A DNA stretch of 64,000 bases. Source: Pelosinus propionicus DSM 13327 (GTDB lineage Bacteria; Bacillota; Negativicutes; DSM-13327). Below, piece by piece: positions 22,838 through 50,077 of the stretch. The position numbers were made by a program, and so were the translations under genes. A model generated the notes under the pieces. It saw only the letters and a list, made by a program, of their open reading frames with translations. It ran no database searches and was not told where the DNA came from. Position 1 is the stretch's first letter, and the number at the start of each line of letters is the position of its first letter. The DNA lies in NCBI RefSeq assembly GCF_900114615.1, contig NZ_FOTS01000014.1, positions 1 through 64,000 of the forward strand, in the 5' to 3' direction.

Positions 22838-22941
22838 TTTCTCCTTTTGAAATGATAAAGTTGAAGTATCACGCCACAATAACAATCAGGAATATGCTAG
22901 TGAATTGATCCATGAATTACGGTAGTATTCTGATGCAGATT

Positions 22942-24913: not shown

Positions 24914-26707
24914 GTGGAAATCATTAATCTTAATTTTGAAAAAATCCCCAGTAATGAGAAAGGAAAGATCAGATATAAATTAGGCAATGATGAGCTTTTT
25001 CCTGAAGAAACTGTAATTAAACATCTAGTTAATAATGGGTACAAAGCAATCTGGTCAGAAAATGACTATTGGTGGTATCTTCTTGCTCTACTTTTTTGGG
25101 ATGTCATTTTTGCACGAATACAAGGTGCAGTTACGGTCATACAACACGGTTTAGAAATAGACCTTGTTCCAGGATCTGATGATTTCAATAAATACTATGA
25201 TCCGACAGTAAGTATCAATGGCATGCCTTCGGACCTATTCAAAACTGAATTCTACCCTCGACGAAAAGCGTTAATTACTAATAAGATTCAAGAACTCTCA
25301 CACAAAAACATTGAAGAAATATTAAGGAAGAGTTATCATTTGCATTTTAATACTAACTGTCGACTCATAGAAAACTGGTCAAAATATTCAGTGGATCAGT
25401 TAGCAATTGCGACACAACTAGTCGATAGAGATAAACTACTTTGTATCTTAGAACGGATATTAAATAACATTAATGAAAATAGAGCTGGACTGCCCGATTT
25501 AATAATATACGACGACAAGGATTTCTTTTTTGGAGAGGTTAAAAGTGAAAATGATAAGCTATCTGACAAGCAGAAAGATTGGATTAGTTTTTTAGAGTCC
25601 CTCAATTTAACGTCTAATCTATACGTTATTAATCATTCAAATAAGCAAATCGAAAACATTAAAAATAGAAGTACAGCGAAAAAAATTTTTATAAAAGTTA
25701 GCTTTGGGAACTCTACAAGTAAAAAGCGTGAAGAAGCAATCCAATTTGTAAAACAACAACCTACATACTTCACTTCCGGTGAGGGGAAAGAACAAATATA
25801 TGGAGCCATTTTCGACGCAAGCGACATAGAGAACCTATATCAGATTTTAGACCTAACCAGTGGATGGAAGACACAGCGTATTGAAACAAACGGCGAAATC
25901 TTAAAATCCACTGAATTACGTGGTGTGCTTTGGTGTTTTCGTGAAAAAAACCGTCTCAAAGCGTCTTCTGATTATTGCAAGCAACATCAATATAATGATG
26001 AAAAAAATCCGTTTAACTGTAGGCAAATTAGTTTCGACCCTAAACGATGGACACAATATGGATATATTGACACAGAAAACGGTGACTGGGTATTTAATAA
26101 AGAAGAACTGCAAAATTTTATAAACGATATAATTGCACGCCAATCTTTATGTCCACTTTTTGACTCAAAGAAAATTGCGCAGTTTTTGAAAGATTTGCCT
26201 AACACAATAAACCCAATAAGAGATAAGAGCTGGGCTTATTTATCGATTGACCGTCGTCGTTGGTTTTGCCACAATGGTCAATGGATTGATTCGTGGGGGA
26301 GTTCTGATGGTTATCCCGGTGCGCGGACAATGATAGGTATTGAAGAAATTAGTAACAAGGAAATAAAAGAATCCCTCCAACACCTTAAATTAATGAAAGA
26401 ATTCCGTAGCGAAATTACAGTTAATATTGAATCGCAAAAAACAAGACAGGTCGCCAAGAAATCTGGCTGTTTTATTGCTACCACTATATATGGCGATTAT
26501 GATGCGCCACAAGTGCTTACTCTACGCAGATTTAGAGACAAAATACTAGGCCAAAGTGTTCTTGGTCGTATTTTTATTAACACCTATTACACTTTAAGTC
26601 CCATTTTGATAAAGATTATAAAAACACATAAGCCTGTTAGTAATATCACCCGTATATTCTTGGAACGTCTTATTCTCTGGTTGGAACAAAAGCATCCTAA
26701 TATCTGA
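24914..26707 (+). CDS. VRR-NUC nuclease with C-terminal CFI-box domain
   Basis: 597 residues from a GTG at 24914 (GGAG 8 nt upstream; the frame opens at 24905). The N-terminal FPEETVIKHLVNNGYKAIWSEND resembles the lead-in of VRR-NUC proteins. Numbered from the upstream in-frame GTG at 24905, the catalytic PD-(D/E)xK core is D198, E211, K213, with the SxxQxxW helix at 220-226. VRR-NUC is the FAN1/phage-type structure-selective endonuclease fold. The last about 80 residues are a CFI-box-CTERM domain (CFIATTIYGD, RRFRDKILGQS, YYTLSP), a hydrophobic module of unknown role that may contact membrane. The middle (about 300-500) has repeated W-rich segments I cannot assign. A defence or mobile-element nuclease is inferred from the neighbourhood. 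Confidence 0.78.
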   Translation: MEIINLNFEKIPSNEKGKIRYKLGNDELFPEETVIKHLVNNGYKAIWSENDYWWYLLALLFWDVIFARIQGAVTVIQHGLEIDLVPGSDDFNKYYDPTVSINGMPSDLFKTEFYPRRKALITNKIQELSHKNIEEILRKSYHLHFNTNCRLIENWSKYSVDQLAIATQLVDRDKLLCILERILNNINENRAGLPDLIIYDDKDFFFGEVKSENDKLSDKQKDWISFLESLNLTSNLYVINHSNKQIENIKNRSTAKKIFIKVSFGNSTSKKREEAIQFVKQQPTYFTSGEGKEQIYGAIFDASDIENLYQILDLTSGWKTQRIETNGEILKSTELRGVLWCFREKNRLKASSDYCKQHQYNDEKNPFNCRQISFDPKRWTQYGYIDTENGDWVFNKEELQNFINDIIARQSLCPLFDSKKIAQFLKDLPNTINPIRDKSWAYLSIDRRRWFCHNGQWIDSWGSSDGYPGARTMIGIEEISNKEIKESLQHLKLMKEFRSEITVNIESQKTRQVAKKSGCFIATTIYGDYDAPQVLTLRRFRDKILGQSVLGRIFINTYYTLSPILIKIIKTHKPVSNITRIFLERLILWLEQKHPNI

Positions 26708-26768
26708 AGAATTATTGATCAACAAAAGTAATTTGCCAAGATTGTTAATCCAAGATAATAATTAAATT

Positions 26769-26804
26769 AAATGGGAAGTCATCCACATGGACGACTTCCC
26801 ATTT
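26769..26804. terminator. Bidirectional terminator between convergent genes
   Basis: Sixteen-base arms (26769-26784 and 26789-26804, one G.U-type mismatch) around a 4-nt loop, placed between the VRR-NUC gene (plus) and the helicase-nuclease gene (minus). Confidence 0.85.
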
Positions 26805-26861
26805 CCACTTTATATGCACAGCAAAACTGTGAGCATACCTTCATTTAGCAATATAAATCCT

Positions 26862-29800
26862 TTAATTTTTATACGGCTGAATTCCCATAGCATCCAATGT
26901 TGTCCATAAAGATTCTAAAGCCGTTTTCCTATCTCGATAAAAGGCACTGCCTCTTACTCTCCAGAAATTCCAACCCACTCGTTCTAAAATCATTTGCCGT
27001 TCAAGGTCAGCCTCCCATCTATCAAGACCATGCCATTCATCGCCATCAACTTCAATCGCTAAACGTGCATTCATACCTTCAATAACGGTGTCAATTCGGT
27101 ATGGGTGAGTTCCCACTTTAAATTCTGGGATAGCGCGGTACCCTCGTGCAACGATTAACTTATGAATGTCTTTATGAAGCTTGCTTGAGCCATATCTTCG
27201 AAACAACTTCTCCGCATCCTCCATTTCGTATTCTGCTCTTCTGGGGTCGAGACAATATTGAAGTAAATGGTACCGCATACAATTTGGGTTCAAATCTTTT
27301 AAGTCTACAGAATGGAAAAGCCATAATTGCTCTTTTGCTCTACTCGCCGCAACATTAAATCGCTGTTCATCGGACCGCTTACTTAATACACCTGAACGAA
27401 CATTAGGAGCGGCAACCATAGAAAGAAAGATTACATCACGTTCATCACCTTGGAAAGAGTAGGCATCTCCACAGATAATTCCTCTATCTATCATTCCGCC
27501 TTCTCCGAGTTTTTCACGAAGCTGTTGCTCTATTACATAGGCTTGCTCTTTCCCCTGTAGTGAGATTACTCCCATTGTCTTATTTTCATACTCTTCCTTA
27601 CTGCACAGTTCCACTATTTTATCAACTAATGAATTAGCCTCTGGCTCATTTACAGCAGAAGAACCTTCATCACGATATCCATCTCCCACTCGTACGGAAA
27701 CTATCGGTGGAGTCAGCGCACCTGTACTTGGAACCTTAAGAGGTTCAATTGTACCACCATAAAACATATCATTACTAAATTGAATAATCTCTGGAACACA
27801 TCTAAAATGTTCCTTCAACATAATCTGCTGACCAGGAAACACTCTCAGAGCGGTATCATATAGACTATCTTGTAACGTAAACCTCTCTCGTTGTGGAATA
27901 TCGATGAGATACCGATCTATTAGTTTATAAACTTCTGATTGGTCTTTACCAACGCCTTCAGGACTAATTTGTCTGTCATCCCCCACTATTACTGCTCGTT
28001 TAGCTCTAAATAACGCACTTAGTGCAAACAAGTCGCATTGACTACTCTCATCCATTATCACAACATCAAATGGTTCCTCAGATGGTTTAAAATTTTCTAT
28101 GACCCTGTTTAAAGGCATAATCCATACAGGAACTGCTCCACGACAAGACGCCATCTCTTTTTTAGCATCAGCTTGATGTTTTGCGGCATATTTCCCAGTT
28201 CCTTTACCGATCCTCCGTATAGTTTGTACCCAAGAACGAAGACTTCTTTTTTGCACGTCAGTTGTTCTTTTATTCTGCTCAAGCCAAGTTGATTTGGCAA
28301 CTAGGGTCTGTATTAACCTTGATTCTTCATCTCGAGCATGCTTTAGTTGTTCATATAGTTCTTCTAATTTATATTTAGTAAAATGTTTTTTCAGCCAACA
28401 TTCCGCTCTTCTCCAATCCCAAGCACCTCGCCAAGAAGAAGGTGGCTCAGAAATGTCCTCAAACCTTACCTCAGCTTCAATCTGTGCTGTCCAACGAGGA
28501 GCGCAAGAACTTAATCGTTTTTTTAATTCTATTAATTCTTGTACCTTGGGTTCTAACGCACGAAGTCTACGTAGCTCCTTTAGAGTACCTATCCATCGAT
28601 TACCATCACCGAGACGATACGCATCATACAATGTTGACCAAGAGTCATGTGCATTCTCCATAGATAAGCCTTGCTTTAAGAAACCTGAGAACGACTCAAA
28701 CTCTTTATTCAATTGATTGTATTCTAATAGCTCTATATATGCGACGAGACTATTTTTAAAGCAATTTAGCCATTCTGGATTTGTCCATTCAAGAACTCCG
28801 TGCGGCTTAATGTCCTCCGACACAGATGCTAAAGCATTTAAGTGGTCAAACTTCCAACTGAAAGCAACTTCAATAAGACCAATATACTTTTCTAATATTT
28901 GTAGCATTTTAGGTTCTGACTCACTTAACGATGGTCCATCTACAATTTTGATACTATTATTCCATTTTTGCACAAGGCGTTTTTTTGCCTCTAGCATATC
29001 AATATGATGTATTAATATTCCGATATCCTCTACTGTGCGGAGACTAGATCCATTGATTTTGAATTGATCTAGAATATATAATGATTTTTTACCAGTTAAC
29101 AGCTTAAACATAAAGCCCAGGCTTCCATTCTTAGATAACTGCGTCCGTATAATCTCTGCATCTTCTCGAACTTGTCGTAGGTCAAAACTGCTAGAAATTT
29201 CTAAGGAAAATTCAACAATTTTATTCTCTATTTCACGAATTGCACGTTTTCTTTCCTTACAGTCAGTAACAAGTTCTTGCCAACTAACTATTCGATTTTC
29301 CCCGTGTACAATGTCGTCTAATACTTTAACTAACCATTCCTCGGACAACAATTCAAAAGTTGCTAAAGCCCTTTCTGTAACCATCAAGCTCTCAGTAGCT
29401 TTGACAGCGGCGTTTGGAGATAAAAGGCAACCTTTAAGTTTTCCCTCGCGGTCATCATTTCTTGATCGCAACTGCATTAACTTATTGTATGTGCTTGAAA
29501 CCATATCTCCATCAGGAAGGTTTTCTAATTCTGGACGTCGTCGCAATACTTTATCTACATCTTCTTTCGATATCTCATTCAATAATCCATATAACTTTAT
29601 CAACTCAGAATCAGAGAAAAGGATTTCAATAGAATCATCTATTTCATCAGGAAACCAGCCATATTCCTCTTGGTTTCCAACAAGCCATTCTGCTAATTGC
29701 ATTGGAGAGAATTCTTGTTCTGCAAAATTAACTTTCCCGTTTTCAGCCTCAGTAGCTCTTCCTAATTCTGTTTTTATTCTTGCAATTTTACTTTTACAAT

Positions 29801-31352
29801 CAGAGATTTCTTTGCGTAGTATTGTGATATCTGCTGACAATATGTCCACATTCATTTTGTCTAACCCTTCGGAAATTTTCGTGACCGAAAGATCTAACTC
29901 CTGAACCGAACGTGCATCACCACCCATCACACTCACACAAAGTGGCGCAATCTCAGGCAACTTAGTACGAATCATATCACCTAGTACCCGCAAAGCTCGC
30001 TCCGTCTGACTTGTAACTAAAACACGTTTACCGTGTGCTAGTAGATGGGCAATAAGGTTTACAATAGTATGACTCTTACCTGTCCCTGGAGGACCTTGAA
30101 CTACGACCCCAATATTTTTGCTTAGTCTTCTTACAATTTCCTTTTGGTCTTCATTTGCGGGAAGAGGAAAAAGTAATTCTTGACCAATAGGTTTCCATTG
30201 ACTAGATTCAGTTTCTTGTCTTTCTTCGCTTTGCTTTGATACATCTACGGATACTAAAGCTTCTATAGTTTCCGGTACATAATGTCCATTTCGTATTTCC
30301 TCAATTACTGCCTTTAATTCCGCCTGCCATTGCCTTCCTGACTGGCTACGAAGAAATATAATGGGAGCGTTATAGATTATTGGATTACTTTCTGCTGTCA
30401 ATCCTCGACCTGAAATTAATTCAGCCTCTCCTTTACCATTAGGAGATAGTGTTTGAGCTAATTCATTTAAGAATGGTTTTAATATCTCGTCTTCTAATGG
30501 ATTTATTCCAACATCCTGAATAAAATGCTCCATTGACACTAAATGAGTAGAATTAGGAAGATCTATATTACTTAACATATCTAACTCAAGAATTGTTCCA
30601 TTACTAGTTGGAACCAATTGAAAAAGTCCCTTTTTAGAATCGAACAAAAGTTCAATTCTAGTTGTTAAAACAGGACGAAATACACGGCTGTCATTTACAC
30701 TCCATGCCAGCAAACCATGACCCCAAACAAGTTCTGTGGAGTCTCCTTCCCGTCGTAACCGTTGATAAAGGGTAAACAATTCACCATACAATCTTTGTAT
30801 TTTTGTTTTTGGGAGAGTATCTGAAGCCCAAGGCTTCCACTTCTCGTCTAGCCATTTTTGCCACAGTGCCATTCGCTGTGGCTCCGCATCAAACAGAATT
30901 TCGTTCTTTGCTTTTAAATCCTCTATCCGCTTAACCAGCCTAGCTAGAACATCCTCTACTTTTGAAAGTTCATCACCAGTAAGCGTCGTTGTTTCTACTT
31001 TTAGCTCTTCAATTCTTTTCTGCCCTACATATAATTCTTCTTTTTCTTCATACGTTAGTTTTGATATAGTGCTGTATACTTGTGGAAACTTATCTGGTTC
31101 AGTCCCTTTAATCTTAATCCATTCCTCAAGTTCCTTGGGTATTACTGGAGATGGTTCAATTACTTGCTTATATACCTCTAACCATGCTTCTGTATCTTTT
31201 GTATTACTATGTAGGAAACATCCCTCTCCAATAGGAAGTTCACTTTGCCACCAATATTTATCATCATACTTTTGAAAGTCCCTAACCACAGGAACCGTTA
31301 AATTCTTTAATGTTAATAGATATTCAAAAACTTGAATTGGACTCGCCGACAT
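26862..31352 (-). CDS. Large SF1 helicase-nuclease fusion (C-terminal Vsr/MTES_1575-like nuclease)
   Basis: 1496 residues. Residues about 1-390 are an N-terminal region of unknown fold. The superfamily 1 helicase core has Walker A GPPGTGKS (Lys426), a DEAD-like VIMDESSQCD and GDDRQISP, RNVAASRAKEQLW near the end of the core, and a long coiled-coil insertion (about 490-1000) between motif Ia and motif II, as in UPF1/Dna2-like enzymes. The final about 80 residues (AIEVDGDEWHG, LERVGWNFWRVRGS) form a DUF559/Vsr-like PD-(D/E)xK nuclease of the MTES_1575 type. Helicase-Vsr fusions act alone in some described phage-defence systems. SD AGAGGTGA precedes the ATG. Terminators flank it, so it is probably monocistronic. 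Confidence 0.82.
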   Translation of the reverse strand: MSASPIQVFEYLLTLKNLTVPVVRDFQKYDDKYWWQSELPIGEGCFLHSNTKDTEAWLEVYKQVIEPSPVIPKELEEWIKIKGTEPDKFPQVYSTISKLTYEEKEELYVGQKRIEELKVETTTLTGDELSKVEDVLARLVKRIEDLKAKNEILFDAEPQRMALWQKWLDEKWKPWASDTLPKTKIQRLYGELFTLYQRLRREGDSTELVWGHGLLAWSVNDSRVFRPVLTTRIELLFDSKKGLFQLVPTSNGTILELDMLSNIDLPNSTHLVSMEHFIQDVGINPLEDEILKPFLNELAQTLSPNGKGEAELISGRGLTAESNPIIYNAPIIFLRSQSGRQWQAELKAVIEEIRNGHYVPETIEALVSVDVSKQSEERQETESSQWKPIGQELLFPLPANEDQKEIVRRLSKNIGVVVQGPPGTGKSHTIVNLIAHLLAHGKRVLVTSQTERALRVLGDMIRTKLPEIAPLCVSVMGGDARSVQELDLSVTKISEGLDKMNVDILSADITILRKEISDCKSKIARIKTELGRATEAENGKVNFAEQEFSPMQLAEWLVGNQEEYGWFPDEIDDSIEILFSDSELIKLYGLLNEISKEDVDKVLRRRPELENLPDGDMVSSTYNKLMQLRSRNDDREGKLKGCLLSPNAAVKATESLMVTERALATFELLSEEWLVKVLDDIVHGENRIVSWQELVTDCKERKRAIREIENKIVEFSLEISSSFDLRQVREDAEIIRTQLSKNGSLGFMFKLLTGKKSLYILDQFKINGSSLRTVEDIGILIHHIDMLEAKKRLVQKWNNSIKIVDGPSLSESEPKMLQILEKYIGLIEVAFSWKFDHLNALASVSEDIKPHGVLEWTNPEWLNCFKNSLVAYIELLEYNQLNKEFESFSGFLKQGLSMENAHDSWSTLYDAYRLGDGNRWIGTLKELRRLRALEPKVQELIELKKRLSSCAPRWTAQIEAEVRFEDISEPPSSWRGAWDWRRAECWLKKHFTKYKLEELYEQLKHARDEESRLIQTLVAKSTWLEQNKRTTDVQKRSLRSWVQTIRRIGKGTGKYAAKHQADAKKEMASCRGAVPVWIMPLNRVIENFKPSEEPFDVVIMDESSQCDLFALSALFRAKRAVIVGDDRQISPEGVGKDQSEVYKLIDRYLIDIPQRERFTLQDSLYDTALRVFPGQQIMLKEHFRCVPEIIQFSNDMFYGGTIEPLKVPSTGALTPPIVSVRVGDGYRDEGSSAVNEPEANSLVDKIVELCSKEEYENKTMGVISLQGKEQAYVIEQQLREKLGEGGMIDRGIICGDAYSFQGDERDVIFLSMVAAPNVRSGVLSKRSDEQRFNVAASRAKEQLWLFHSVDLKDLNPNCMRYHLLQYCLDPRRAEYEMEDAEKLFRRYGSSKLHKDIHKLIVARGYRAIPEFKVGTHPYRIDTVIEGMNARLAIEVDGDEWHGLDRWEADLERQMILERVGWNFWRVRGSAFYRDRKTALESLWTTLDAMGIQPYKN

Positions 31353-31700
31353 AGGTTCACCTCTTAACCAATATTCATTTTAAGATATACTTAGAGACTT
31401 AAGTAGCCATTTCCTTTAAAGAATAGTACAATTTGCTAAACTTTTTCATATCATATGGAATCTTATTAACAGTATGTGTAATGTTTTACATTTCGTAAAT
31501 CCGATATAATAATTATTATCTTCAGATCAGATTTATTCTGATGTTATAATTAGTGCGAATTTTTTAATATTCCTATGAATAGCTTATATTCTCTATACAG
31601 TTTTATCTTACTTATATTTACGAAAAAGTAAGAAGGAAAAAGATTCAAAAGATAGAAGGCTTTGTTTTAAGTTAAAACTTATCTAATAGGAGTGAGTATT

Positions 31701-31877
31701 GTGCATGTGATTAAAGACGCAGTTATTATTTCAACCCGTACCCAAAATGTTCATAAAATTGGTGACAGTTTCAAAGAAGGAAAAATATATGTTAATTTCT
31801 CTAATAGCTCAGTATATCGATATGATAATGGCAACTTTAAATCAATGGGTAAACTATCGACTTTCATGGGGTTATGA
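31701..31877 (+). CDS. Small ORF of unknown function (58 aa)
   Basis: Starts at a GTG at 31701 with AGGAG 8 nt upstream. A second ORF (31747-31941) overlaps it in another frame and ends in an acidic WYEDED tail right at a terminator hairpin; either could be real, or both may derive from one gene broken by an indel. No family recognised. The rest of the 31353-32195 gap is A+T-rich and holds hairpins only. Confidence 0.35.
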   Translation: MHVIKDAVIISTRTQNVHKIGDSFKEGKIYVNFSNSSVYRYDNGNFKSMGKLSTFMGL

Positions 31878-31928
31878 TTATGCAATAAATGATTTACCTT
31901 GGGGAAAATTGAAAGCAGATTGGTACGA

Positions 31929-32009
31929 GGATGAAGATTAAATTAATAAATCTTCATCCTCCCACAATAACTGAGAAACATTGATTCTTAATTTTAAATT
32001 AAGAATCAA
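31929..32009 (+). terminator. Two successive hairpins after the small ORFs
   Basis: Stem 1 pairs 31929-31939 with 31950-31960. Stem 2 is a near-perfect A+T-rich palindrome at 31981-32009 followed by a T-containing stretch. Either could end the small plus-strand transcript. Confidence 0.5.
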
Positions 32010-32054
32010 TTACTCTTTACTTTTACATTACAAAAGTATGAACTTCTAAATTAT

Positions 32055-32098
32055 AAAGCGAGATAACCGTTCTTAATTAAAGGTTAGTCTCGCTTTTT
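32055..32098. terminator. Terminator (arms 32055-32068 and 32082-32096)
   Basis: GC-containing stem with one bulge and a T-run on the plus strand and a flanking A-run, so it can act in both directions; it lies about 100 bp past the end of the PLD/HEPN-like gene on the minus strand. Confidence 0.75.
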
Positions 32099-32195
32099 AT
32101 AATTGTTATACTTTAAGCTAAAAGTAGTAATTATTTTAGGTCATTTTTAATATAACAATACTTCAAAAGCTAAGTTCACTGCTCCTGATTTTGTA

Positions 32196-33923
32196 TCACT
32201 TTAAATAATTTCGTAGTTCTACTTCTAAATTTTCCAATAACTTAATTTGAAGATATAGAAAGCCATTATTAATAAAATGAGGTAAGCATCCTGCTAAATC
32301 TTCATCAAGAAATTGATAAAATTTAGATTTATATTTTGTTTCGATTTCGATGTGATTACAAAAATTTCGATACATTCTAACTTTTTCTAATACATGAAAA
32401 ATTCCCGGCGGACAAATTGCTTTAAAACTATTCCAAAAATAACCTTTTTCTACTGTTTCTATGGACTCAGTAATGGAAATATTAGTTGCGGTAATAAATG
32501 TTTTAAATGAATCTTCGTTATATGCTAGCGGGACGGAAAGTAAAGCTATACTATTAGGAATAACCGAATCGCCAAGCCACCCTTTGCCATTAATATCTTT
32601 TAGCCTTTCATCAACTCCGTTGATAAGCTCCTTGATTGTCAGCATTTTTAAAGCTAACCATTTTTTATCAACAATTTTAGCTTGAAGTACCTCTGACTTC
32701 TTTGTATTTTGATTTAAAATAGAATGACATTTTTCAATATTTTCTTTATTTAGCAAATATCCGTACTCAACATATCCCTCTTGACTACTTTGTAAATGAA
32801 TTGTCGTCCTACAAAAATCCGAAATTACCCCGCTGTTATCATCAATTGTGAGTACCTTATTTCCCCAAAGAGGTATTTGCACTAAATGCAGACTCTTATA
32901 CTTTTTTGTTAATTCAAACAGCTTAATATATTGCTCCTTTTGATGTTTAGAGCAAAATTCACGTCCACTAGATAATACTGTTACATGAACTTCCTTTTTC
33001 AACGCCGCTATTAAAGATTCAATTAATATATCACTCGGACTACAAATGTCAATTAATGGTAGGCTTAGTGTAATTTTACTATTTGCACTTTTAATTAGGC
33101 TTATCCAGTTATCATAAATAATACCAGGGCCACAATATTCTTCACTCAAATCTAATCCTGAGATTAAGTTCGACTGTGGATAATGAGCAGGGAGTCCTTT
33201 TAAAATAACATTATCATTATTCTCCAAAACATTTAAGGCATCCTCATACCCTTCCACTCGAACCAGCCCCTCATAAACGGCAATACGAGTATTTTTTTCA
33301 TCGTTAGTATAGAACAGGACGTTAAGCCGTTTAAAAAAAGTTTTATTTCCTTCTACGTTCACCAAATCAATTAAGTCACCATCATACAATTCCGCATCAA
33401 TTTTCTTGTACTCATTTATAACTCTTTTTACTTGTTGAAATTCAACAGAGTCTACATTGGGCGGAGAGATAACTGGTCGCAGACTTACAAGTCCATTTTC
33501 TCTAACTTGCCTACTTTTCATTAATTGAGAACTCTCTCTCTTTACCGTTCCTATTAAACCGTCTATACACACTGGTACTAATATTTGTTCTTTTTTATCC
33601 ATACGTCTTTCCTGTAAATAATCGTGTCCGATTTGGGTTATTCGTTGAGTCCTATCATTTATAAACTCTTGATACACTAATTCCCAAAACGCTTGATCAA
33701 CCAGTTCTTCGTCCAATCCTATAATCAAAGAAATTTTATCCAAACTAAGTCCGAGACTATAGTAATGAAGTACAAATTCGACTACTACTGGAAGTTGACC
33801 TCGACTTTGCATTAGACAATGCAAACTACATTTGAAGACAGGTGCGCACAATTCAATATAACCGGAGATTTTATAGCCTGGTAATTCATCTTTATATTTA
33901 TCTACTAAATGCTCAATCGCCAT
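32196..33923 (-). CDS. PLD-like and HEPN-like partner of the kinase-helicase
   Basis: 575 residues. Three regions can be seen. Residues about 45-110 look like a winged-helix DNA-binding segment (LPVVVEFVLHYYSLGLSLDKISLIIGLDEE). Residues about 265-390 follow a phospholipase-D-like layout (NWISLIKSANSKITLSLPLI, then NKVLTIDDNSGVISDF), but the HKD motif is degenerate: Lys and Asp are kept, the His is not. The C-terminal helix pair carries YRNFCNH, R519-x4-H524, a HEPN RNase signature. The ATG overlaps the end of the upstream kinase-helicase gene by 11 bp with a GGGGGAAG SD inside it, so the two are translationally coupled and probably work together. No named family recognised. Confidence 0.6.
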   Translation of the reverse strand: MAIEHLVDKYKDELPGYKISGYIELCAPVFKCSLHCLMQSRGQLPVVVEFVLHYYSLGLSLDKISLIIGLDEELVDQAFWELVYQEFINDRTQRITQIGHDYLQERRMDKKEQILVPVCIDGLIGTVKRESSQLMKSRQVRENGLVSLRPVISPPNVDSVEFQQVKRVINEYKKIDAELYDGDLIDLVNVEGNKTFFKRLNVLFYTNDEKNTRIAVYEGLVRVEGYEDALNVLENNDNVILKGLPAHYPQSNLISGLDLSEEYCGPGIIYDNWISLIKSANSKITLSLPLIDICSPSDILIESLIAALKKEVHVTVLSSGREFCSKHQKEQYIKLFELTKKYKSLHLVQIPLWGNKVLTIDDNSGVISDFCRTTIHLQSSQEGYVEYGYLLNKENIEKCHSILNQNTKKSEVLQAKIVDKKWLALKMLTIKELINGVDERLKDINGKGWLGDSVIPNSIALLSVPLAYNEDSFKTFITATNISITESIETVEKGYFWNSFKAICPPGIFHVLEKVRMYRNFCNHIEIETKYKSKFYQFLDEDLAGCLPHFINNGFLYLQIKLLENLEVELRNYLK

Positions 33924-36900
33924 TTATGCTTCCCCCAATATTAAAGTAAGTTCTTGCGTCTTCAATAAGACATTCAGCAGGATACTTTTTCATGAAAGAT
34001 AGCAAGTTTAAAAAAGGGTTCCCAAAAGGAGTCTGCGCTCGTTCTGCAAAAAATGCATTACCTACTATTATAAGTGCATTTCTACCTCTTGAAAGAGCTA
34101 CATTTAATCTACGATAATCATGTAAAAAACCAATATTATTATCCTTATTAGACCTAACAATACTATAAATTGAAATATCTGTTTCAGAACCTTGGAATGC
34201 ATCTACATTATCAATAACTATTTTTATATTCTTCCACTTATCAGTATTATTAGGCTTAATTAAATTGTGCAGTAACCCCTTTTGTGCAGAATAGGCGGAT
34301 AGTACTCCTACTCTAACTTTTCCAGGTACGTTGTTATATCTGGTTTCAATGAGTTCAAGAATTTTAAGGATTACTTTAGCTTCAGCATTATTTTTTTTAG
34401 ATGAGTTTAATTCTTGCTCATCACAATCAAGCATACTTGCCGTATCAAACCAAGCTATTGTACGAGGCCACCACGACATCTCATGCTTTCTTTCTTCCGC
34501 TGTTTTCTTTGTTGTAATAATTTCGGTTGGGTAGAACACCTCCGAAATCAATTTAGCTATACTTGGATGCATTCTAAATTGTGAGGTCAAAATAGTTTTT
34601 GCATTTTCCGGAACTCTTTCAATCAATTCTTCAAATAAACTTTTTTCAAGTTCTTCCTCCCGTATACCAAGTTTCTTTAAAATAGGCTTAATGTCGCCAT
34701 TAACTACAGGAGGAAGTTGTCGATGATCACCAACTAAGATAATTTTTTTCCCTCTTATAATGGGAACTAGAAGCTCCGGTGCAGTAGCACGTCCTGCTTC
34801 ATCAACAATAACCCAGTCAAATACCATGCTATTTAATGCATTACGCGATGCAATTCCTAAACATGTTGCGGCGACAATAGAAGCCTTTTGTGCAAAAATT
34901 TCATCAAATTCATCTAATTTTCCTAGTCGTTTATGCCATTCTTTAGTTAAAAATACTAATTTATTAATTTCTCCATCTTTTCCATCATGGGATACTTTTG
35001 CATTACCAAATGAATCCAAATTTTTATCGTTTTCAAGATACTCTTTAATGTCTACTTGTCCTTGTTCTGTAAGGCAATAATTTAAACTGAGATACTCTAA
35101 CAACTCACTTTTCGAGCTAACTTTCACTTCAGATACCCATTTTTTCAATTGGTTAGGCATCATTAAAAATTGAGAATCCTCTGAGATTTTATCTGCTCTA
35201 CCGATTCTAATAATTCTCTTATTATTTAATTGTTTGTGAATATTATTTAAAGCATGATCAACAGCAACATGAGACTGTGAACTCAGTAAAATTTTTGCTT
35301 TCGGATCCCTTTTCAATATTTGGCATACTATTTCGGTAATTACTGTAGTCTTACCAGTTCCAGGCGGTCCTTGGATTAAAAAAATATCTTTCGTAGCTAA
35401 AGCTTTTTCTACTGCTATTTCATTAGAAGTATCAAGATTTTGATAAAATTTATCTACAGGGGAAATACCATACATAGAAATAATTTCTGGATCACTAATA
35501 ATCTTAGATAAAATTGGATTAACAGTTGTTCCTGTTCTAATCGCTTTTACTGCCCATTTTAAGCGCCGTAAAGTAGTTTCCGCCTGCTGAGTATCAATTC
35601 CTAAAGTCCCCTTTGTCGCTAGATTCTCAATATCTGCAATCAAATTACGATTTATCCAGATCTGCTCTCCCCGAACTTCGTCTACTGTTCCAATAGACAT
35701 AGTTCTTCCTGAGTTTATCGACATTTGAACATAATCACCTTGTTCAAAATCACATGAGCCGTTTCCGGAATGAACAATAAGTTGGTCTCCATTTTGAGAT
35801 AGTTCAAAAGAGTCATAATGGCATAGCGTTCGTTTTCTTTTTATCTCTAGCATTTGCTCATCAATAAATCTTTCCCATTTTTTTATAAGTCTGTTTTGCG
35901 TTTCTTCTCTTCCTATTTGAACCTGCCGCTTCTTTTCCTCATCTTCCACTTGAGATAGGAATTCTACCAATTGGCTATCTTCAAAAAGCTTATTGCCTTG
36001 AGATACAATAATCCAATTAGCATTAACCTCAACAGCATATTTTGTTTCCTTTTCCCATTCAGTGTAGTCAAGGCTATTTAACCTCTTAATAAACAAACAG
36101 CTTTTTTCAGATGACAAAATGCAATGATATCTTGCTTTTTCTCCTATTAGATAATAATTATTTTTTCTTTTATAAATTTTACTTTTATTTAAATCTTTTT
36201 GAATAAAAGCTTTGGCATAGTCACCAACGTGATACCTAATCAATCCAAGGTCATATAATTGCTTACAAATACCAAAATGCAACGTTAAATTATGAGTGAT
36301 TCTAACAGTGTTTTTTCGAATAAGTGCTTTGACTTCACTGATAACTAAACGAATGCTCTGCGGTCTTAATTCGGGCTTCACTTGTAACATGCTTTTAAGA
36401 AGAGCTTTTAAGATAACATCACAAGCTAATTCATCAACCTGATCCAAAAGAAGATCTTTATTATCTGGTGGATCATTTCCTTGAAGAAGGAAAAAAAGTA
36501 TTGCCCCAACGGAAAATAAGTCGCTAGTAGGCTTTGCTTCATGCCGCATTAGCTGTTCAGGCGATGCATACGCCACTGTCATATAATCTCTAAGAGTATC
36601 AGTAGAGTTATAGGCATACCCCATAATTTTACTAATACCAAAATCTATAATTTTAACTTTTGTGAGTTCATCTACTAAAATATTTGATGGTTTTAGGTCG
36701 CGATGAATAATATTCTTCTGATGTGCATCTGCAATTCCTTCTAATATACCTAGAAAAATTTGTAAAATATCACCAAGACTTATTTCTTTATTTTCGATAA
36801 TCTTTTTAAGATTCTTTGATTCAAAGTACTGAGTCACAAGATAGAGTTTATCATTTTCTACCCCGGAATCTATATACGTTATAATATTAGGGTGGTTAAG

Positions 36901-37089
36901 TCTAGCCAAAGATTCACATTCGCGACGAAACAATTCCTTAACACCAATACTTGTAGAGTCAATGCTTGATAATACCTTAACAGCTACCAAATTACTATTA
37001 TTCATTAGATCTGCGGCTAGCCACACCCTACTTGTATTCGTTCTGTCGATTTCACGAATTACGTTATACCGATTACCGATTAGTGCCAT
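33913..37089 (-). CDS. Ser/Thr protein kinase fused to an SF1 helicase
   Basis: 1058 residues. Residues 1-260 are a Hanks-type kinase: VAVK (Lys38), HRDLKPSN (129-136), DFG (149-151) and YASPEQ (174-179) are intact, while the Gly-rich loop is degenerate (DRTNTSRVWLA). A linker (about 260-550) with a coiled-coil stretch near 380-420 leads to a UPF1/Dna2-like SF1 helicase: Walker A GPPGTGKT (Lys580), VIVDEAGRA, GDHRQLPPV, a conserved TSQFRMHP, and a C-terminal VDAFQGSE plus NVALSRGR. Kinase and helicase are both predicted active. SD AGGAGGG precedes the ATG. It is first in a two-gene operon with the PLD/HEPN-like gene. A phosphorylation-controlled nucleic-acid sensor in defence is an inference from domains and context. 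Confidence 0.85.
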   Translation of the reverse strand: MALIGNRYNVIREIDRTNTSRVWLAADLMNNSNLVAVKVLSSIDSTSIGVKELFRRECESLARLNHPNIITYIDSGVENDKLYLVTQYFESKNLKKIIENKEISLGDILQIFLGILEGIADAHQKNIIHRDLKPSNILVDELTKVKIIDFGISKIMGYAYNSTDTLRDYMTVAYASPEQLMRHEAKPTSDLFSVGAILFFLLQGNDPPDNKDLLLDQVDELACDVILKALLKSMLQVKPELRPQSIRLVISEVKALIRKNTVRITHNLTLHFGICKQLYDLGLIRYHVGDYAKAFIQKDLNKSKIYKRKNNYYLIGEKARYHCILSSEKSCLFIKRLNSLDYTEWEKETKYAVEVNANWIIVSQGNKLFEDSQLVEFLSQVEDEEKKRQVQIGREETQNRLIKKWERFIDEQMLEIKRKRTLCHYDSFELSQNGDQLIVHSGNGSCDFEQGDYVQMSINSGRTMSIGTVDEVRGEQIWINRNLIADIENLATKGTLGIDTQQAETTLRRLKWAVKAIRTGTTVNPILSKIISDPEIISMYGISPVDKFYQNLDTSNEIAVEKALATKDIFLIQGPPGTGKTTVITEIVCQILKRDPKAKILLSSQSHVAVDHALNNIHKQLNNKRIIRIGRADKISEDSQFLMMPNQLKKWVSEVKVSSKSELLEYLSLNYCLTEQGQVDIKEYLENDKNLDSFGNAKVSHDGKDGEINKLVFLTKEWHKRLGKLDEFDEIFAQKASIVAATCLGIASRNALNSMVFDWVIVDEAGRATAPELLVPIIRGKKIILVGDHRQLPPVVNGDIKPILKKLGIREEELEKSLFEELIERVPENAKTILTSQFRMHPSIAKLISEVFYPTEIITTKKTAEERKHEMSWWPRTIAWFDTASMLDCDEQELNSSKKNNAEAKVILKILELIETRYNNVPGKVRVGVLSAYSAQKGLLHNLIKPNNTDKWKNIKIVIDNVDAFQGSETDISIYSIVRSNKDNNIGFLHDYRRLNVALSRGRNALIIVGNAFFAERAQTPFGNPFLNLLSFMKKYPAECLIEDARTYFNIGGSINGD

Positions 37090-37320
37090 AGTCCCCTCCT
37101 ACCATTACTCTTTCAAATAACCTTCAAATAATTACTCTTGTAACATTCGACAAATCTAAAAAGTGCACCTGCCATAATTCTACCAATTCCATGATTTATT
37201 GTATATTATGTATCGAGCTACCCTGTTTTAAAACTCAATCGATTTTTCAAACCTTTACTCTTTTAAAATCAGCTTAGAACTAGCTTCCCGAACGAACCTT
37301 GCTATTTTCTGATATAAGTA

Positions 37321-37353
37321 AAGAAGCCCCTGTACCAAGCACAGGAGCTTCTT
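37321..37353 (-). terminator. Terminator upstream of the kinase-helicase gene
   Basis: Thirteen-base arms (37321-37333, 37341-37353, one mismatch), T-rich on the minus strand afterwards. It should end transcription from the small upstream genes and leaves 37090-37320 for the kinase-helicase promoter. A second short hairpin (gagggg/cccctc, about 37380-37395) lies next to it. Nothing else is seen in 37090-37472. Confidence 0.75.
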
Positions 37354-37472
37354 CTACACAAAACCTGATTAACAGGTTGAGGGGTTTTGCCCCTCTGGAT
37401 AATCGAGTTATAACATAGACACACGAAAAAAGATAGGATATCTCCTTAAACCTAGATGGCTAAATACAAGGA

Positions 37473-37661
37473 CTAAAGGTTTCCCTTTTCAACCTGTTTG
37501 CGAAAAGTCCTCTGAACAATAGGTTTTACAACAGTATAATAAAATTTTTTCCCTTCAGCAATACGTTGTAGAGAAAAAGGGTTCTTTTTATTTTCAAGTC
37601 CATTTACCAGAAAATCTTCTTTACTATTATTCTTGTTTCGAATTTCCTGAAGTGTTCTCAT
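37473..37661 (-). CDS. Small basic protein of unknown function (62 aa)
   Basis: 62 residues, basic, with AAAGGGG 5 nt before its ATG, so it is likely to be translated. No motif recognised. It lies between the 82-aa gene and the kinase-helicase operon on the same strand. Confidence 0.5.
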   Translation of the reverse strand: MRTLQEIRNKNNSKEDFLVNGLENKKNPFSLQRIAEGKKFYYTVVKPIVQRTFRKQVEKGNL

Positions 37662-37775
37662 TGTTCCCCTTTCATTTGTCTAAAATATACTTTTTGACAC
37701 TTTTCCACAAAGCTTCGAGCCATATCTAAATTACAATAGTCATAACATATAAAAAGCAAAGCCAAAAGTCCGTCT

Positions 37776-38024
37776 TTATGGATGATTATTCTTTTTGGGC
37801 GCTACGGTCCACCGATTCATTTCCCATTGATTCCAAACCATCTTATCTAAGTCTAGCCCATTAGCCTCAAACGATTTTCTGATAAATTCTCTCTCATACT
37901 GTATTTGAGCAACAATAGAGTTATCGCCTCTTTTCTGATAAGCTTTCTCCATATCGGACAGCCTCTCATATTCTTCCAACAATACTCCTATGATAATAGA
38001 TTTAGATATATGGGTGTGGTCCAT
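37776..38024 (-). CDS. Small protein of unknown function (82 aa)
   Basis: 82 residues from the ATG at 38024 (AGGAG 9 nt upstream; an in-frame TTG two codons earlier is too close to the SD). Mostly helical, with a charged middle (EEYERLSDMEKAYQKRGD) and an aromatic end (WNQWEMNRW). No family recognised. Same strand as its neighbours. Confidence 0.55.
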   Translation of the reverse strand: MDHTHISKSIIIGVLLEEYERLSDMEKAYQKRGDNSIVAQIQYEREFIRKSFEANGLDLDKMVWNQWEMNRWTVAPKKNNHP

Positions 38025-38239
38025 TTTCAACTACTCCTATCTTTATTATAACTAGCATAACTTATAAAAGAGCCTTTATGACACATTATAATTCAATGCC
38101 ATCGTTATAACAATACGGAGTAGATGAATTTGAAGAAATCTGCCTTATTCAATTTCACAAGCCTACTCGTAAGTTGCAAATGGCATTAAGTTGATTGAAA
38201 ACCTTTTCATCACCCTCGCTAATAGATAAGTTAACCCGA

Positions 38240-39100
38240 TTAATTGCCTAGCTTTAGCCAAGCTAATTCCGCAATTTGTTCAACTTCAGTCTTCATTAGA
38301 ACCTTGTCGGTGTATTTAGGCAAAATGGAATTAAGATAGGCAATCTTTGTTGATTTCTTGTAACAATTCTTAAAGGTTTCGTCCTCTATGACAATCGCTA
38401 CTAATTTTTCAAGGTCTAGTTGATTCGCTTTTTTTATTCGATTTTGTGCCTCTTTTGCTAGAGCATCTATTTCAAGCAAAGACTTATATTTACCCGGATA
38501 CCTTTTTCCAAAGATCTCAGAAGCATAATACCGTCTGCTTCTACTCGTCTCATATTTAAACTCTTCATCCTGAACAAGTAGCTGGATTAGTTCCTCGTCT
38601 AATGCATCCTCTTGTCTCGCTTTTACTTCTCTTAATTGTTGTATCTCTTCTTCGTAACCGCTTGTTATTTTATCTAAGGTCTCTTGAGGGTCGGGGAGAT
38701 TAGTAAACCAATCCTGTAAAAACCAAATGGCAAATATAATACCATTAATAGGTACTGAAAGAATCATCTCATAGCACCCGCTCGATGCCATCTTTTTAAT
38801 ATTATCGTTATGGCGTTTGACGTTTTTTAGAATGTCTTTATATCTCTCGCCATATTCATCTAAAGTTATCGTCTCTTCGTTTATTAAAATTTCCTCCAAC
38901 TCTTCCCCTTTGAGGGTTTCGGATTTGAGAAACATAGTTTTGATACCGTTATCAATTGCTATACTGCATAGTTCTTGTATTGCATCTTCTCTTTCATCAT
39001 TTAGCCTATAATCTCCTCTTGGCGATTCCTCTACTTCAATAATTTTAAGGTTATTGTTCTTTATAATTTCTTCGACCTCGTTAATGGTAGGAAAGCCCAA
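38240..39100 (-). CDS. Unknown protein with one hydrophobic segment (286 aa)
   Basis: 286 residues from a TTG at 39100 with GGAGGG 7 nt upstream. Acidic N-terminal part, a hydrophobic stretch at about 113-130 (MILSVPINGIIFAIWFLQDWF), then a charged coiled-coil-like region (EEEIQQLREVKARQEDALDEE) and a helical C-terminus. I recognise no family. Being an element gene of unknown type next to defence-like genes, it could be a membrane-linked effector, but that is guesswork. Confidence 0.6.
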   Translation of the reverse strand: MGFPTINEVEEIIKNNNLKIIEVEESPRGDYRLNDEREDAIQELCSIAIDNGIKTMFLKSETLKGEELEEILINEETITLDEYGERYKDILKNVKRHNDNIKKMASSGCYEMILSVPINGIIFAIWFLQDWFTNLPDPQETLDKITSGYEEEIQQLREVKARQEDALDEELIQLLVQDEEFKYETSRSRRYYASEIFGKRYPGKYKSLLEIDALAKEAQNRIKKANQLDLEKLVAIVIEDETFKNCYKKSTKIAYLNSILPKYTDKVLMKTEVEQIAELAWLKLGN

Positions 39101-39576
39101 TAAAATCCCTCCTCATCATATGATAGCAGTATATCTTTCGACATTATTCTCCCAGTTCCTACCACAGAAATACACAAACACAAGCATTGCCTAAATAAAT
39201 ACCTTTAAAAGTCTTACAGTCCTAGAAAAAGAAAAAGAGGCGTTTTGTACGACGATTCCAATTGGAACTGCAGTTGCTTTACAATATTGTAGATTGAAAA
39301 CTGCCCAACATTCTATCTACAACTTTCCTGTGCTTTGTGTTTTGTTTTATATTTGTAGATTCCTAACAAATATTATAAAGAAATTTATATACAATGAACA
39401 ATCCTTATGTCCTTAACGATTATTTTCATACTTTTAATCCTGTTGTTGGACGAAGAAACAAGAGGATATAATTTCTATCGTTCAAAAAATTTTCGTCGCA
39501 AAATTGGCTTGCTTTAGTGCTTGAGCTTATTGCAACAATTAGAGTATTATTAAATCAAACAAGCCTAAAATAAACA

Positions 39577-39620
39577 GGTAGTCCCACTCCAAGTGTGAGA
39601 GACTACCGACTCATGTGGGA
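39577..39620 (+). promoter_or_regulatory. Two mutually exclusive hairpins in the leader of the NYN operon
   Basis: Arms ggtagtc (39577-39583) and gactacc (39601-39607) form one stem; tcccac (39582-39587) and gtggga (39615-39620) form another. They share bases, so only one can exist at a time, as in an attenuator or sensor leader. The structure ends about 65 nt before the first gene. The rest of 39101-39685 is A+T-rich and shows no other gene. Confidence 0.4.
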
Positions 39621-39685
39621 ACTCTATGTCCCTAGTGCGTTGATTACAATCTAAATTTCAGAATGAAATCAAGAGGATGAAGAAA

Positions 39686-39856
39686 ATGAATGAAGGAAAA
39701 CAATTAAATTACGAATATCCAACTAGCTGTCCTCATTGCCATGCCGACTTATTAAGTGACGAGATTGCCATTGAAGATATCATGGGCACTATCTGCCGTA
39801 ATCCAGACAGAATTGAGCAATGCCAGTGTCCGATTGTAAAAGGATATGGAGGTTGA
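39686..39856 (+). CDS. Small cysteine-rich (zinc-ribbon-like) protein
   Basis: 56 residues from the ATG at 39686 (AGAGG 9 nt upstream; an earlier in-frame ATG at 39677 abuts the SD). It has CPHC near the N-terminus and a later C...CQC group, suggesting one metal-binding ribbon. No family recognised. Its stop is 6 bp before the next ATG, and the SD of the next gene lies inside its last codons. Confidence 0.5.
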   Translation: MNEGKQLNYEYPTSCPHCHADLLSDEIAIEDIMGTICRNPDRIEQCQCPIVKGYGG

Positions 39857-39862
39857 ATTTAA

Positions 39863-40069
39863 ATGAGGTCGTTTCTTGATAGTGCAGATAAATTTTTAAT
39901 TTCAGAAATTCTAGGAGAACTTGTGCAACAACATAATTTTTCTGAAGCAAGGGCTAAAAAACTCATGAAGAAATCAAACCTTTTGTCACTCTTAGTACAT
40001 AGTCCATATTATACACATCATAAAGATGGTACTAGCTGGGCATATGAGATAGTTCGACAAACAACATGA
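39863..40069 (+). CDS. Small protein of unknown function (67 aa), NYN operon
   Basis: 67 residues; GGAGG lies 10 nt before the ATG, inside the preceding gene. Helical, with SEARAKKLMKKSNLLSLLVHSPYYTHH. Not recognised. It sits between the cysteine-rich gene and the NYN-domain gene on the same strand, so it is probably cotranscribed with both. Confidence 0.5.
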   Translation: MRSFLDSADKFLISEILGELVQQHNFSEARAKKLMKKSNLLSLLVHSPYYTHHKDGTSWAYEIVRQTT

Positions 40070-40233
40070 TTAATGAGAAGGATGTAATATATAATCGGCT
40101 TTATTTAGTATCATTTTCTCAATTAATGAAGTTATTAAAATTAATGATAACTTTAATATATATAATTAGATACGCCAAGGTAACTACATTTTTTGAAATG
40201 AGGGTGTATCTCCACGGAACGGAGGAATTCCAA

Positions 40234-40782
40234 ATGGAAGAGATGATTGATTTAACCAATCTAGCACATAAAGCATACGTTTTTTTCGATAAACCTAACT
40301 CAATGCCAAACGAGAAAGAGCAACCATGGGTAGCCCTCTTTATAGATGGCGATGGTTTAGGACGTGATGTTTCAATCAAAAAAGTGCTTGCACAAGCTGA
40401 AGAACTCGGAGATGTGGTAGTCCGAAGAGTTTATGCAAATTATACAACGCCGTCTTTTGTAACTCGTTGGATGGAAATATATAAAAAATACTTGTTTGAG
40501 CGCCGAATTTTTCATGGTGTACACAAGAACATTGCTGATATGGGAATTTGTTGCGATGCAGTAGAATTAGCATTAAATGAACCACGTCTAGATTATTTTA
40601 TTATCGTTTCTCACGATGGAGGTTTTTTCCCGCTGATGGCTAAATTAGACGAACTCAAAAAGAAAGTGTATTGGATTGGCGGTAAAGAGCCTTTGAAAAA
40701 AGCTGAAAGATTACAAGAAGAACTTGATAATAAAGAAAAACGGCTAAAATTAAGTAGGAAGGTTGGTTCCGATGATTTCTAA
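40234..40782 (+). CDS. NYN-domain (PIN-like) ribonuclease
   Basis: 182 residues from the ATG at 40234, selected because GGAGG is 8 nt upstream; the frame is open from 40066 but that part has no domain and lacks an SD. The NYN/LabA-like fold is clear: FIDGDGLGRD (first acidic residues), then GICCDAVELAL and IIVSHDGGFFPLM with the later acidic residues, then KKKVYWIGG. Such proteins are metal-dependent RNases. It ends the little operon with the cysteine-rich protein and the 67-aa protein. A toxin or phage-defence RNase role is inferred from the setting. Confidence 0.72.
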   Translation: MEEMIDLTNLAHKAYVFFDKPNSMPNEKEQPWVALFIDGDGLGRDVSIKKVLAQAEELGDVVVRRVYANYTTPSFVTRWMEIYKKYLFERRIFHGVHKNIADMGICCDAVELALNEPRLDYFIIVSHDGGFFPLMAKLDELKKKVYWIGGKEPLKKAERLQEELDNKEKRLKLSRKVGSDDF

Positions 40783-41104
40783 GCTTGTTATCAAAAACCT
40801 TTAATGCTTTGATGAATGATAGAAGTATATAAAGATGAAATTAGTCAATTACATAAGAACGAATGTGCGTAAAGGAGGGCTTTTATCATATTAAACAGGC
40901 TTTCAAGAAAATGTAGATTATCATAATCTTATTACTAACGCATAATCGCTCAACATTTTCCGTATCTAGAGGAATTACTAATTGGGCTGAGAAATTAATA
41001 CTAAATTGCAATTGCAAAGAATTAATCCAAATGATATATTGTCATCATTAGAGCTATCTGGCTCATCGGATCGCGTAATCACCCTAACAGTTGTCAGAAG
41101 AACG

Positions 41105-41133
41105 GGCTAGGGAGTATAAGCCCTAGTTTTTCC
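41105..41133 (+). terminator. Terminator after the NYN operon
   Basis: CTAGGG/CCCTAG stem followed by five Ts on the plus strand. The 40783-41104 stretch before it has no supportable gene, although DILSSLELSGSSDRVITLTVVRR just before the hairpin looks like a coding remnant. Confidence 0.65.
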
Positions 41134-41374
41134 TTATTCAAATGGATATGTTATGAATGAGCAAGAAGACAACTTCTTGTCGGTTCCCTTCATTTCAAAA
41201 ACAATTAGAGAAAGCCACATAAGTAGTCTGGTCTTATTTCAAGGATAAAGACCAATGGAGTTGTAATGGACTGGATCGCTGTGGCAATGGAATGTATTGT
41301 TGATGTTAGGCTGGAAAAGAATTTATAAGCAAAGCATGGGAAGCAAACACAGTTAAGATAATTTCTCAAAATTA

Positions 41375-41420
41375 AAGGAACGGAAAAGCAATGGTGGTTA
41401 ACCATACCTTCCCGTTCCTT
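41375..41420 (-). terminator. Terminator of the DUF3800 transcript
   Basis: Nine-base arms (41375-41383 and 41412-41420) enclose an inner ggttaacc hairpin; on the minus strand the stem is followed by a T-rich stretch. It would end a minus-strand transcript that contains the DUF3800 gene and the three hairpin repeats. Confidence 0.6.
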
Positions 41421-41427
41421 AGACCAA

Positions 41428-41588
41428 GCGTCATCGCGACTTACTCGGACATTATAAGTTTATCCAGTTTAAGGTAAAAATATAACTAAAACAAACAACA
41501 GTCAGACATGAAGAGTCGTCGCGACTTTCTCCAGCATCTAACTGCCACATATTGAAACCTGTAATAAGAGAGTCATCGCGACTTTCTC
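41428..41588 (-). ncRNA. Three hairpin repeats in the DUF3800 3' UTR (candidate structured RNA)
   Basis: Three copies of a 17-20 nt unit (core gtcatcgcgactt) at 41428-41446, 41513-41532 and 41568-41588, separated by about 65 and 35 bases. Copies 2 and 3 fold into stems (about 5 bp and 8 bp with a G.U pair) around a five-base loop (gtcgc, atcgc); copy 1 is weaker. They begin about 85 nt after the DUF3800 stop and are followed by a terminator. Conserved RNA structures next to DUF3800 genes have been described as a class; membership here is inferred, not tested. The short repeat, irregular spacing and lack of cas genes argue against CRISPR. Confidence 0.5.
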
Positions 41589-41673
41589 TAAGTTACAAGA
41601 GTTTCACCAATAGAACTGTTCTTAGTATAATTCTTATCATAGTAGTTGTCAAGAATTTTTATTTTATTATATA

Positions 41674-42504
41674 TCATTTTTGTTCTTTAAAGTAGTCTAC
41701 CAAATCATAATTAGCTATAAGTGGACTTATAACTGAGTTATATTTTTGTTCTATCGCAATAAATGCTGGTTTGTCAGTCTGATGCAAATAAATAATCCGA
41801 TAGCAGTACAATATTATATCTACAAGTTGGGTAAAGCCGTTAAAATATGATTCAACTGCAACAGGCTCCGACCACAATCTTCCACCAAATGAATTTTCCT
41901 TAATTTTTGTAACAAAACATTCCCTAATATCTGAATCTAATCTATCGGGTATTAGAACACCTTTCTTGTTTTTGCTCACCAACCGCTCACCGTATTGATT
42001 AACAATAAAATCAACCATTCTATTATTAACGTGTTTGTCTTTGGGTTTAGCAATTCCATTACTCGTTAAGTAATCTGTAATGCTATTTTTGTCAGTCTTA
42101 AATATATATATACGTTCAATAAACGGAGACATTTCTTCAAGTAATTTGTTTATTATATCCCCGATTTCGGAAGGTGCGTGATACTTCCAAGGATTCAATT
42201 TTATTATTCCTCGTTTATCAAAGTCAACTGTGGGGTTAAAGATTTCCCGTGAGTGTAGTTCATATTTAATTAACAACCGGGATAAGTCGGCAGAAATCTC
42301 TTTTTCATTCTTTCCACTATCCCTTAAAGCAACTGTCCATTTATCCTTTACACTTTTCTTAGCTAGTTGAAAGTTCTTCTTAAAGATTGATAAAGCGTCA
42401 TAGACCTTTGTGTTATCGATTATAACACCGCCATACATATATACTACTTGATTAGTTTGTCCAAGAATGTTTTTCCCTGTTTCATCCATATACATTAATT
42501 CCAA
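41674..42504 (-). CDS. DUF3800-family protein (RNase H-like fold)
   Basis: 276 residues from a TTG at 42504 (AGGAG 8 nt upstream), giving the family-typical N-terminus MELMYMDETG; the frame opens at a GTG at 42513. Later family features are GGVIID, LIPDRLDSD, WSEPVAVES and QLVDIILYCYR, which carry the scattered acidic residues of a predicted RNase H-like nuclease. DUF3800 genes are frequent in mobile and defence regions and have no firm function. Its 3' UTR holds hairpin repeats. Confidence 0.75.
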   Translation of the reverse strand: MELMYMDETGKNILGQTNQVVYMYGGVIIDNTKVYDALSIFKKNFQLAKKSVKDKWTVALRDSGKNEKEISADLSRLLIKYELHSREIFNPTVDFDKRGIIKLNPWKYHAPSEIGDIINKLLEEMSPFIERIYIFKTDKNSITDYLTSNGIAKPKDKHVNNRMVDFIVNQYGERLVSKNKKGVLIPDRLDSDIRECFVTKIKENSFGGRLWSEPVAVESYFNGFTQLVDIILYCYRIIYLHQTDKPAFIAIEQKYNSVISPLIANYDLVDYFKEQK

Positions 42505-42605
42505 GATATACACTCCTTTAAAACGCCACAGTTAACTATTTGCTATATATCTACATTCTACCAGAGCTTAGTTTACACCTTCCTATTTTAATATAAAAAA
42601 GCACA

Positions 42606-50051: not shown

Positions 50052-50077
50052 ATTTACCCCCGTTCTGTTAATAGTTG

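Follow-up and report, generated by a model that had tools for sequence, protein, structure and literature searches.

The 64,000-nucleotide stretch of Pelosinus propionicus DSM 13327 DNA analysed here (the window) carries two adjoining minus-strand genes, mkoA and mkoB, within a mobile island that splits selO. The features of the pair and of its setting, in coordinates of the window, are as follows.

37310..37370, minus strand: terminator-like hairpin upstream of mkoA (-25.8 kcal/mol, z -5.17)
33913..37089, minus strand: mkoA, Ser/Thr kinase fused to a UPF1-like SF1 helicase, 1058 aa
36307..37089, minus strand: kinase domain of MkoA, residues 1-261 (Pfam and alignment)
34045..35454, minus strand: SF1 helicase core of MkoA, residues 546-1015 (key motifs intact)
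34867..35199, minus strand: helicase insertion of MkoA, residues 631-741, 111 aa (alignment and length comparison)
32196..33923, minus strand: mkoB, encoding a wHTH region, a short linker, a PLD domain judged dead from its motifs and a HEPN-like tail, 575 aa
33246..33881, minus strand: N-terminal elongated wHTH region of MkoB, residues 15-226 (ORF profile search and alignments)
32739..33107, minus strand: degenerate PLD domain of MkoB, residues 273-395 (PLDc_2 and alignment of 21 MkoB)
32841..32864, minus strand: former HKD motif GNKVLTID, residues 354-361 (HEKVLIMD or HAKILISD in relatives)
32199..32711, minus strand: HEPN-like C-terminal tail of MkoB, residues 405-575 (homologues)
32352..32369, minus strand: R519-N-F-C-N-H524, putative HEPN RNase motif (R and H invariant in four tail sequences)
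32045..32115, minus strand: terminator-like hairpin downstream of mkoB (-19.2 kcal/mol, z -5.23)
22172..50078, approximate bounds: mobile island inside selO, about 28 kb (split SelO matches, Phage_integrase domains and composition)
50174-51259, minus strand: N-terminal part of SelO
21882-22172, minus strand: C-terminal remnant of SelO

The two genes overlap by 11 bp (33913-33923), as given in the preliminary description of this DNA. They are placed alone between terminators, again in agreement with that description, because both flanking hairpins are far more stable than shuffled sequences (z about -5.2 each, from folding energy against shuffles). The mobile island that it had proposed was likewise recovered, in the form of the selO insertion, whose right end carries tyrosine recombinases, and no SelO match beyond the two split parts was found anywhere in the genome. 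Integrase-type genes at this end matched strongly at 44444-46387 and 48729-50051 and weakly at 46384-48732; the three recombinases comprise 440, 782 and 647 aa, the 782-aa member giving the weak match. Together with a 207-aa protein, the trio occupies 43881-50051 on the minus strand and recalls Tn554-type modules. The 7-bp word TAGTAAT lies near both selO junctions and may be a crossover site. MkoB was not found in nine other genomes of the same order, and the class search did not find MkoA in seven genomes of the same genus.

Several other genes of the island deserve mention. A 1496-aa SF1 helicase with a C-terminal MTES_1575 REase (26862-31352, minus strand) is a relative of PADLOC PDC-S37 and, far below the cut-off, of the anti-phage protein ProA. 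Its neighbours are a VRR-NUC nuclease whose C-terminus corresponds to the CFI-box (24905-26707, plus strand) and a 580-aa protein containing RNMIAH with a weak HEPN_Swt1 match (E 0.017; 22942-24684, minus strand), which makes it the island's second HEPN-like candidate. Further genes encode an NYN-domain protein (40066-40782, plus strand) and a DUF3800 protein (41674-42513, minus strand), and at 42606-43552 on the minus strand lie pieces of a gene for an NAD-dependent DNA ligase (its HHH and OB parts).

The 1058-residue protein had been described as a Hanks-type kinase joined to a UPF1/Dna2-like helicase, and Pfam confirmed this architecture with matches to Pkinase (residues 14-243, 143.6 bits), AAA_11 (552-796, 161.9 bits) and AAA_12 (814-1012, 161.9 bits). 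The kinase retains K38, E57, H129-R130-D131 and DFG, with a degenerate Gly loop (IDRTNTSRVW), and the helicase retains the Walker K580 and intact core motifs, so the residue assignments made earlier hold for both enzymes. The insertion in the helicase, presumed to be helical, reaches up to 235 aa in relatives. The PADLOC MkoA model PDLC03920 matched the protein at E 5.5e-235, residues 3-1043 aligning with positions 6-1108 of the 1112 in the profile, and the MkoB model PDLC03922 matched the 575-aa protein at E 1.4e-56 over residues 21-339. Scanning IMG/VR with the MkoA alignment mostly retrieved other UPF1-like helicases, and a scan of genome contigs with MkoA peptide patterns of poor quality gave two remote loci.

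With a full-length kinase-helicase MkoA and an MkoB adjoining it on the same strand, the pair is almost certainly a Mokosh type I anti-phage system. The preliminary description knew of no such two-gene combination; this claim of novelty is refuted because PADLOC, on whose verdict that description had itself made the claim depend, already names both proteins. The pair is conserved elsewhere, the identical gene order being present at 20 other loci from Bacillota, Cyanobacteriota, Pseudomonadota, Actinomycetota and Campylobacterota, five phyla in all. BREX, DISARM and MADS kinase systems were rejected, the full-length MkoA match lying far above the partial kinase matches in PADLOC. Resemblance to DISARM was restricted to a DrmC-like PLD (17.8 bits, PADLOC), and no methylase, DrmA/DrmB or PglZ/BrxC set was found among the island ORFs scanned. 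Mokosh type II is represented by MkoC, the helicase part of which is related to the MkoA of this locus (PADLOC MkoC, 2.6e-31), but MkoC is a single protein, whereas two genes and a kinase are found here. The original Mokosh paper is that of Millman et al. from 2022, as cited in PMC10952713. Accounts of Mokosh generally pair a helicase with a PLD nuclease, and the killing is normally credited to the nuclease domain.

The elongated N-terminal wHTH region is common to all MkoB examined, and a weak Pfam wHTH match (residues 57-115) falls within it, in keeping with the winged-helix-like segment noted previously. The degenerate PLD-like segment also probably stands, as a dead domain: PLDc_2 matched residues 274-366 with 20.6 bits, below the cut-off of 27, and the region can be aligned over its full length with the intact PLDs of relatives. 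The motif H-x-K-x4-D has become G-N-K-x4-D, with Gly in place of the catalytic His and with K and D kept; no His adjoins the motif, and the TSFNWLSF block that usually follows it reads SDFCRTTI. PLD nucleases act via a phosphohistidine. These residues indicate that, in this MkoB, the PLD has lost its catalytic activity.

Loss of the motif extends well beyond this locus. In the alignment of 21 MkoB, H-x-K-x4-D is intact in nine and lost in 12 (11 of the 20 relatives), a fraction that is not a census because the sequences came from similarity searches of Bacillota genomes and plasmids. The state of the motif requires four changes on the tree of the MkoA helicase core, three of them forced by well-supported branches, and it has therefore been lost (or regained) more than once. 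The motif is treated as a variant rather than a defining Mokosh trait because of its loss in these relatives and because the PADLOC models do not require it; PDLC03923 spans one HKD-less MkoB (L032) end to end, and short HKD-less forms match this model. Nine HKD-less MkoB (L032, L033, L079, L080 and L085-L089) have no C-terminal extension, so loss of the motif need not demand a replacement nuclease. In five of these, from rhizobial plasmids (L085-L089), a PP2C phosphatase gene (e.g., L086:6424-7209) overlaps mkoB; the DFG of the corresponding kinases reads DYG, and in two of the operons (L086 and L087) a DUF3800 gene follows that for PP2C. The MkoB of Mycobacterium marinum pRAW (L093:4947-6800) has Val for the HKD His and a C-terminal S1 RNA-binding domain, which points to RNA. 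On a Nostoc N6 plasmid (L090:1352-10491), a CBASS type II-like set (cyclase, E2 and JAB) comes after Mokosh. A literature term search, with most subscription journals outside its reach, gave no description of an HKD-less or HEPN-tailed MkoB.

Among the 21 MkoB compared, the 171-residue tail is confined to that of this locus. Three relatives of it were found: a standalone 208-aa protein on plasmid 2 of Enterococcus faecium DO (E 8e-7, 33% identity over 97 aa), the C-terminal end of an AAA_35/ATPase_2 protein in one genome (G654, E 3.5e-10) and an IMG/VR sequence (L081) 56% identical to the latter. The R and H of R-x4-H are kept across relatives at 24-29% identity, in proteins otherwise unrelated, and are invariant in all four tails, the residue after R being N or H. 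In HEPN domains, a polar residue, typically N or H, follows R, and the motif lies where a helix gives way to a loop (PMC3710099); the superfamily is marked by R-x4-6-H at the end of helix 3 in a four-helix fold. Ex3[KR], a motif common to many HEPN families, occurs in only two of the four tails. The AF2 model of the tail with one relative is all-helical and places R-x4-H at a helix end before a loop, at low confidence (pLDDT 43.9); the full MkoB alone was also predicted with low confidence (pLDDT 37.9). No significant Foldseek match was obtained for the low-confidence tail model, and neither Pfam, NCBIfam nor a PDB sequence search supported a HEPN assignment, the tail profile giving only noise against PDB. 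The HEPN segment of the preliminary description thus stands in part: R519-x4-H524 is where it had been placed and its R and H are invariant in the three relatives, but structure prediction provided no proof. We infer HEPN, rather than assign it, because the HMM libraries are blank on the tail and the AF2 fold lacks confidence; a divergent HEPN RNase domain is nonetheless the likely identity of the tail.

Among the genomes, plasmids, phages and IMG/VR data searched, this MkoB is the only one seen with a HEPN-like tail, and querying IMG/VR with MkoB, with the tail alignment or with the E. faecium protein gave no matches. Genes that fuse an AAA_35-like ATPase to the HEPN-like tail (L029:5667-7838 and L081:3-1292) gave only a weak PDC-S01 match in PADLOC, and serine recombinases lie alongside the second. 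The relatives share a homologous tail with R-x4-H, but carry it on an AAA_35-like ATPase or as a standalone protein, with no kinase-helicase gene seen alongside.

A separate line of evidence concerns the contact between the two Mokosh proteins and tests on them the insertion-wHTH contact suggested for CoCoNuTs (PMC11090510). Over 21 pairs, the length of the MkoA insertion varies with that of the MkoB linker (Spearman 0.94, phylogenetic contrast r 0.83). A contrast r of this size came up in none of 20,000 permutations, r was unchanged when three rows were left out, and control segment pairs gave contrast r values of -0.24 to 0.45 (p above 0.05). The value of 0.83 is obtained when insert columns are counted; an earlier segment end cut these columns off and gave a Spearman coefficient of 0.61 and a contrast r of 0.57 (p 0.009). 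The present locus has the shortest MkoB linker of the panel, 56 aa, together with a short MkoA insertion of 111 aa. This co-variation supports a physical MkoA-MkoB interface, although it does not prove one.

Departures from Mokosh type I at this locus are the loss of the catalytic His in the PLD, the extra HEPN-like tail, and the short linker and insertion; the order of a kinase-SF1 helicase followed by a wHTH-PLD-like protein, in overlapping or adjacent genes, is shared. A close parallel is provided by the CoCoNuTs, whose UPF1-like helicases generally precede an elongated wHTH joined to an effector that varies, HEPN and PLD among them, and in which a coiled-coil or helical insertion of the helicase has been proposed to contact the wHTH protein; in one type, Vsr is fused to the helicase (PMC11090510). 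The cnuH-cnuE arrangement, a UPF1-like helicase with a helical insertion and an elongated wHTH-effector carrying HEPN (types II and III-A) or PLD (III-C), resembles that of mkoAB. It differs in that the kinase of mkoAB is fused to the helicase instead of belonging to a separate TerY-P triad, and in that a dead PLD lies between the wHTH and the tail; Pfam and NCBIfam revealed no McrB/McrC-like CnuB/CnuC in those island ORFs that were scanned. On an IMG/VR contig (L044:2617-9454), a kinase-like gene, a UPF1-like helicase and a wHTH protein resembling MkoB share a TerY-P-like setting, near CoCoNuT cnuHE. Since effector exchange in this class of helicases has already been published for CoCoNuTs, the surprise of such an exchange in Mokosh is limited.

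The reading that we prefer, with a probability of roughly 0.6, is a Mokosh type I system with an effector swap, in which the HEPN-like tail would have taken over from the dead PLD. An anti-phage function, with a sensor kinase-helicase driving a nuclease, is a reasonable reading of the locus. The UPF1-like helicase of MkoA would serve as sensor and motor and would engage invading nucleic acid, most likely RNA, while the N-terminal Ser/Thr kinase would control the switch, presumably by phosphorylation. The insertion in the MkoA helicase would be the docking site for MkoB, which would make this contact with its N-terminal wHTH region and its linker; the dead PLD would probably act as a scaffold or dimerisation unit. 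Once MkoA was engaged, the R-x4-H tail would cut RNA as a HEPN RNase, and this cleavage would stop phage growth or the cell.

The strongest competing account of this Mokosh type I system holds that the PLD-like domain and the tail only bind nucleic acid or partners, and that MkoA itself protects, through helicase clearing or kinase signalling, with no need for a nuclease. The 12 HKD-less MkoB, nine of them without any extension, speak for it, as do the PP2C genes overlapping mkoB in the five rhizobial systems, because of which phospho-signalling may be the output. Against this, the motif is intact in nine other MkoB, which makes a nuclease the norm for some of the family, and the tail has kept its R and H at 24-29% identity, as expected of a catalytic pair; we consider the account unlikely.

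Somewhat less probable still is a tail of some other helical fold, without catalytic function, in which R-x4-H is accidental, the mkoB gene being in decay or dead. The blank profile and structure searches and the single occurrence of the tail in MkoB would fit, but the 575-aa frame is intact with its start overlapping mkoA, and three other proteins carry homologous tails with the same R-x4-H. The PLD might also be active through a displaced His, the tail merely regulating it, as the retained K and D of GNKVLTID would allow; with no His beside the motif and the TSFNWLSF block lost, this is very improbable.

Extended to the family, this reading suggests, tentatively and at slightly less than an even chance, that Mokosh acts as a sensor-adaptor platform on which effectors can be exchanged, its PLD nuclease having been inactivated several times. 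At the present locus a HEPN RNase would have been grafted behind the dead PLD, which would hold the HEPN dimer together, and the length-matched interface between MkoA insertion and MkoB linker would transmit the signal irrespective of the effector. The length co-variation points to the surface by which MkoA should control MkoB. Because over half of the sampled MkoB lack the catalytic His of the PLD, the identity of the Mokosh effector becomes a testable question, and this locus, where a single protein combines a dead PLD with a candidate HEPN RNase, offers a direct test of it.
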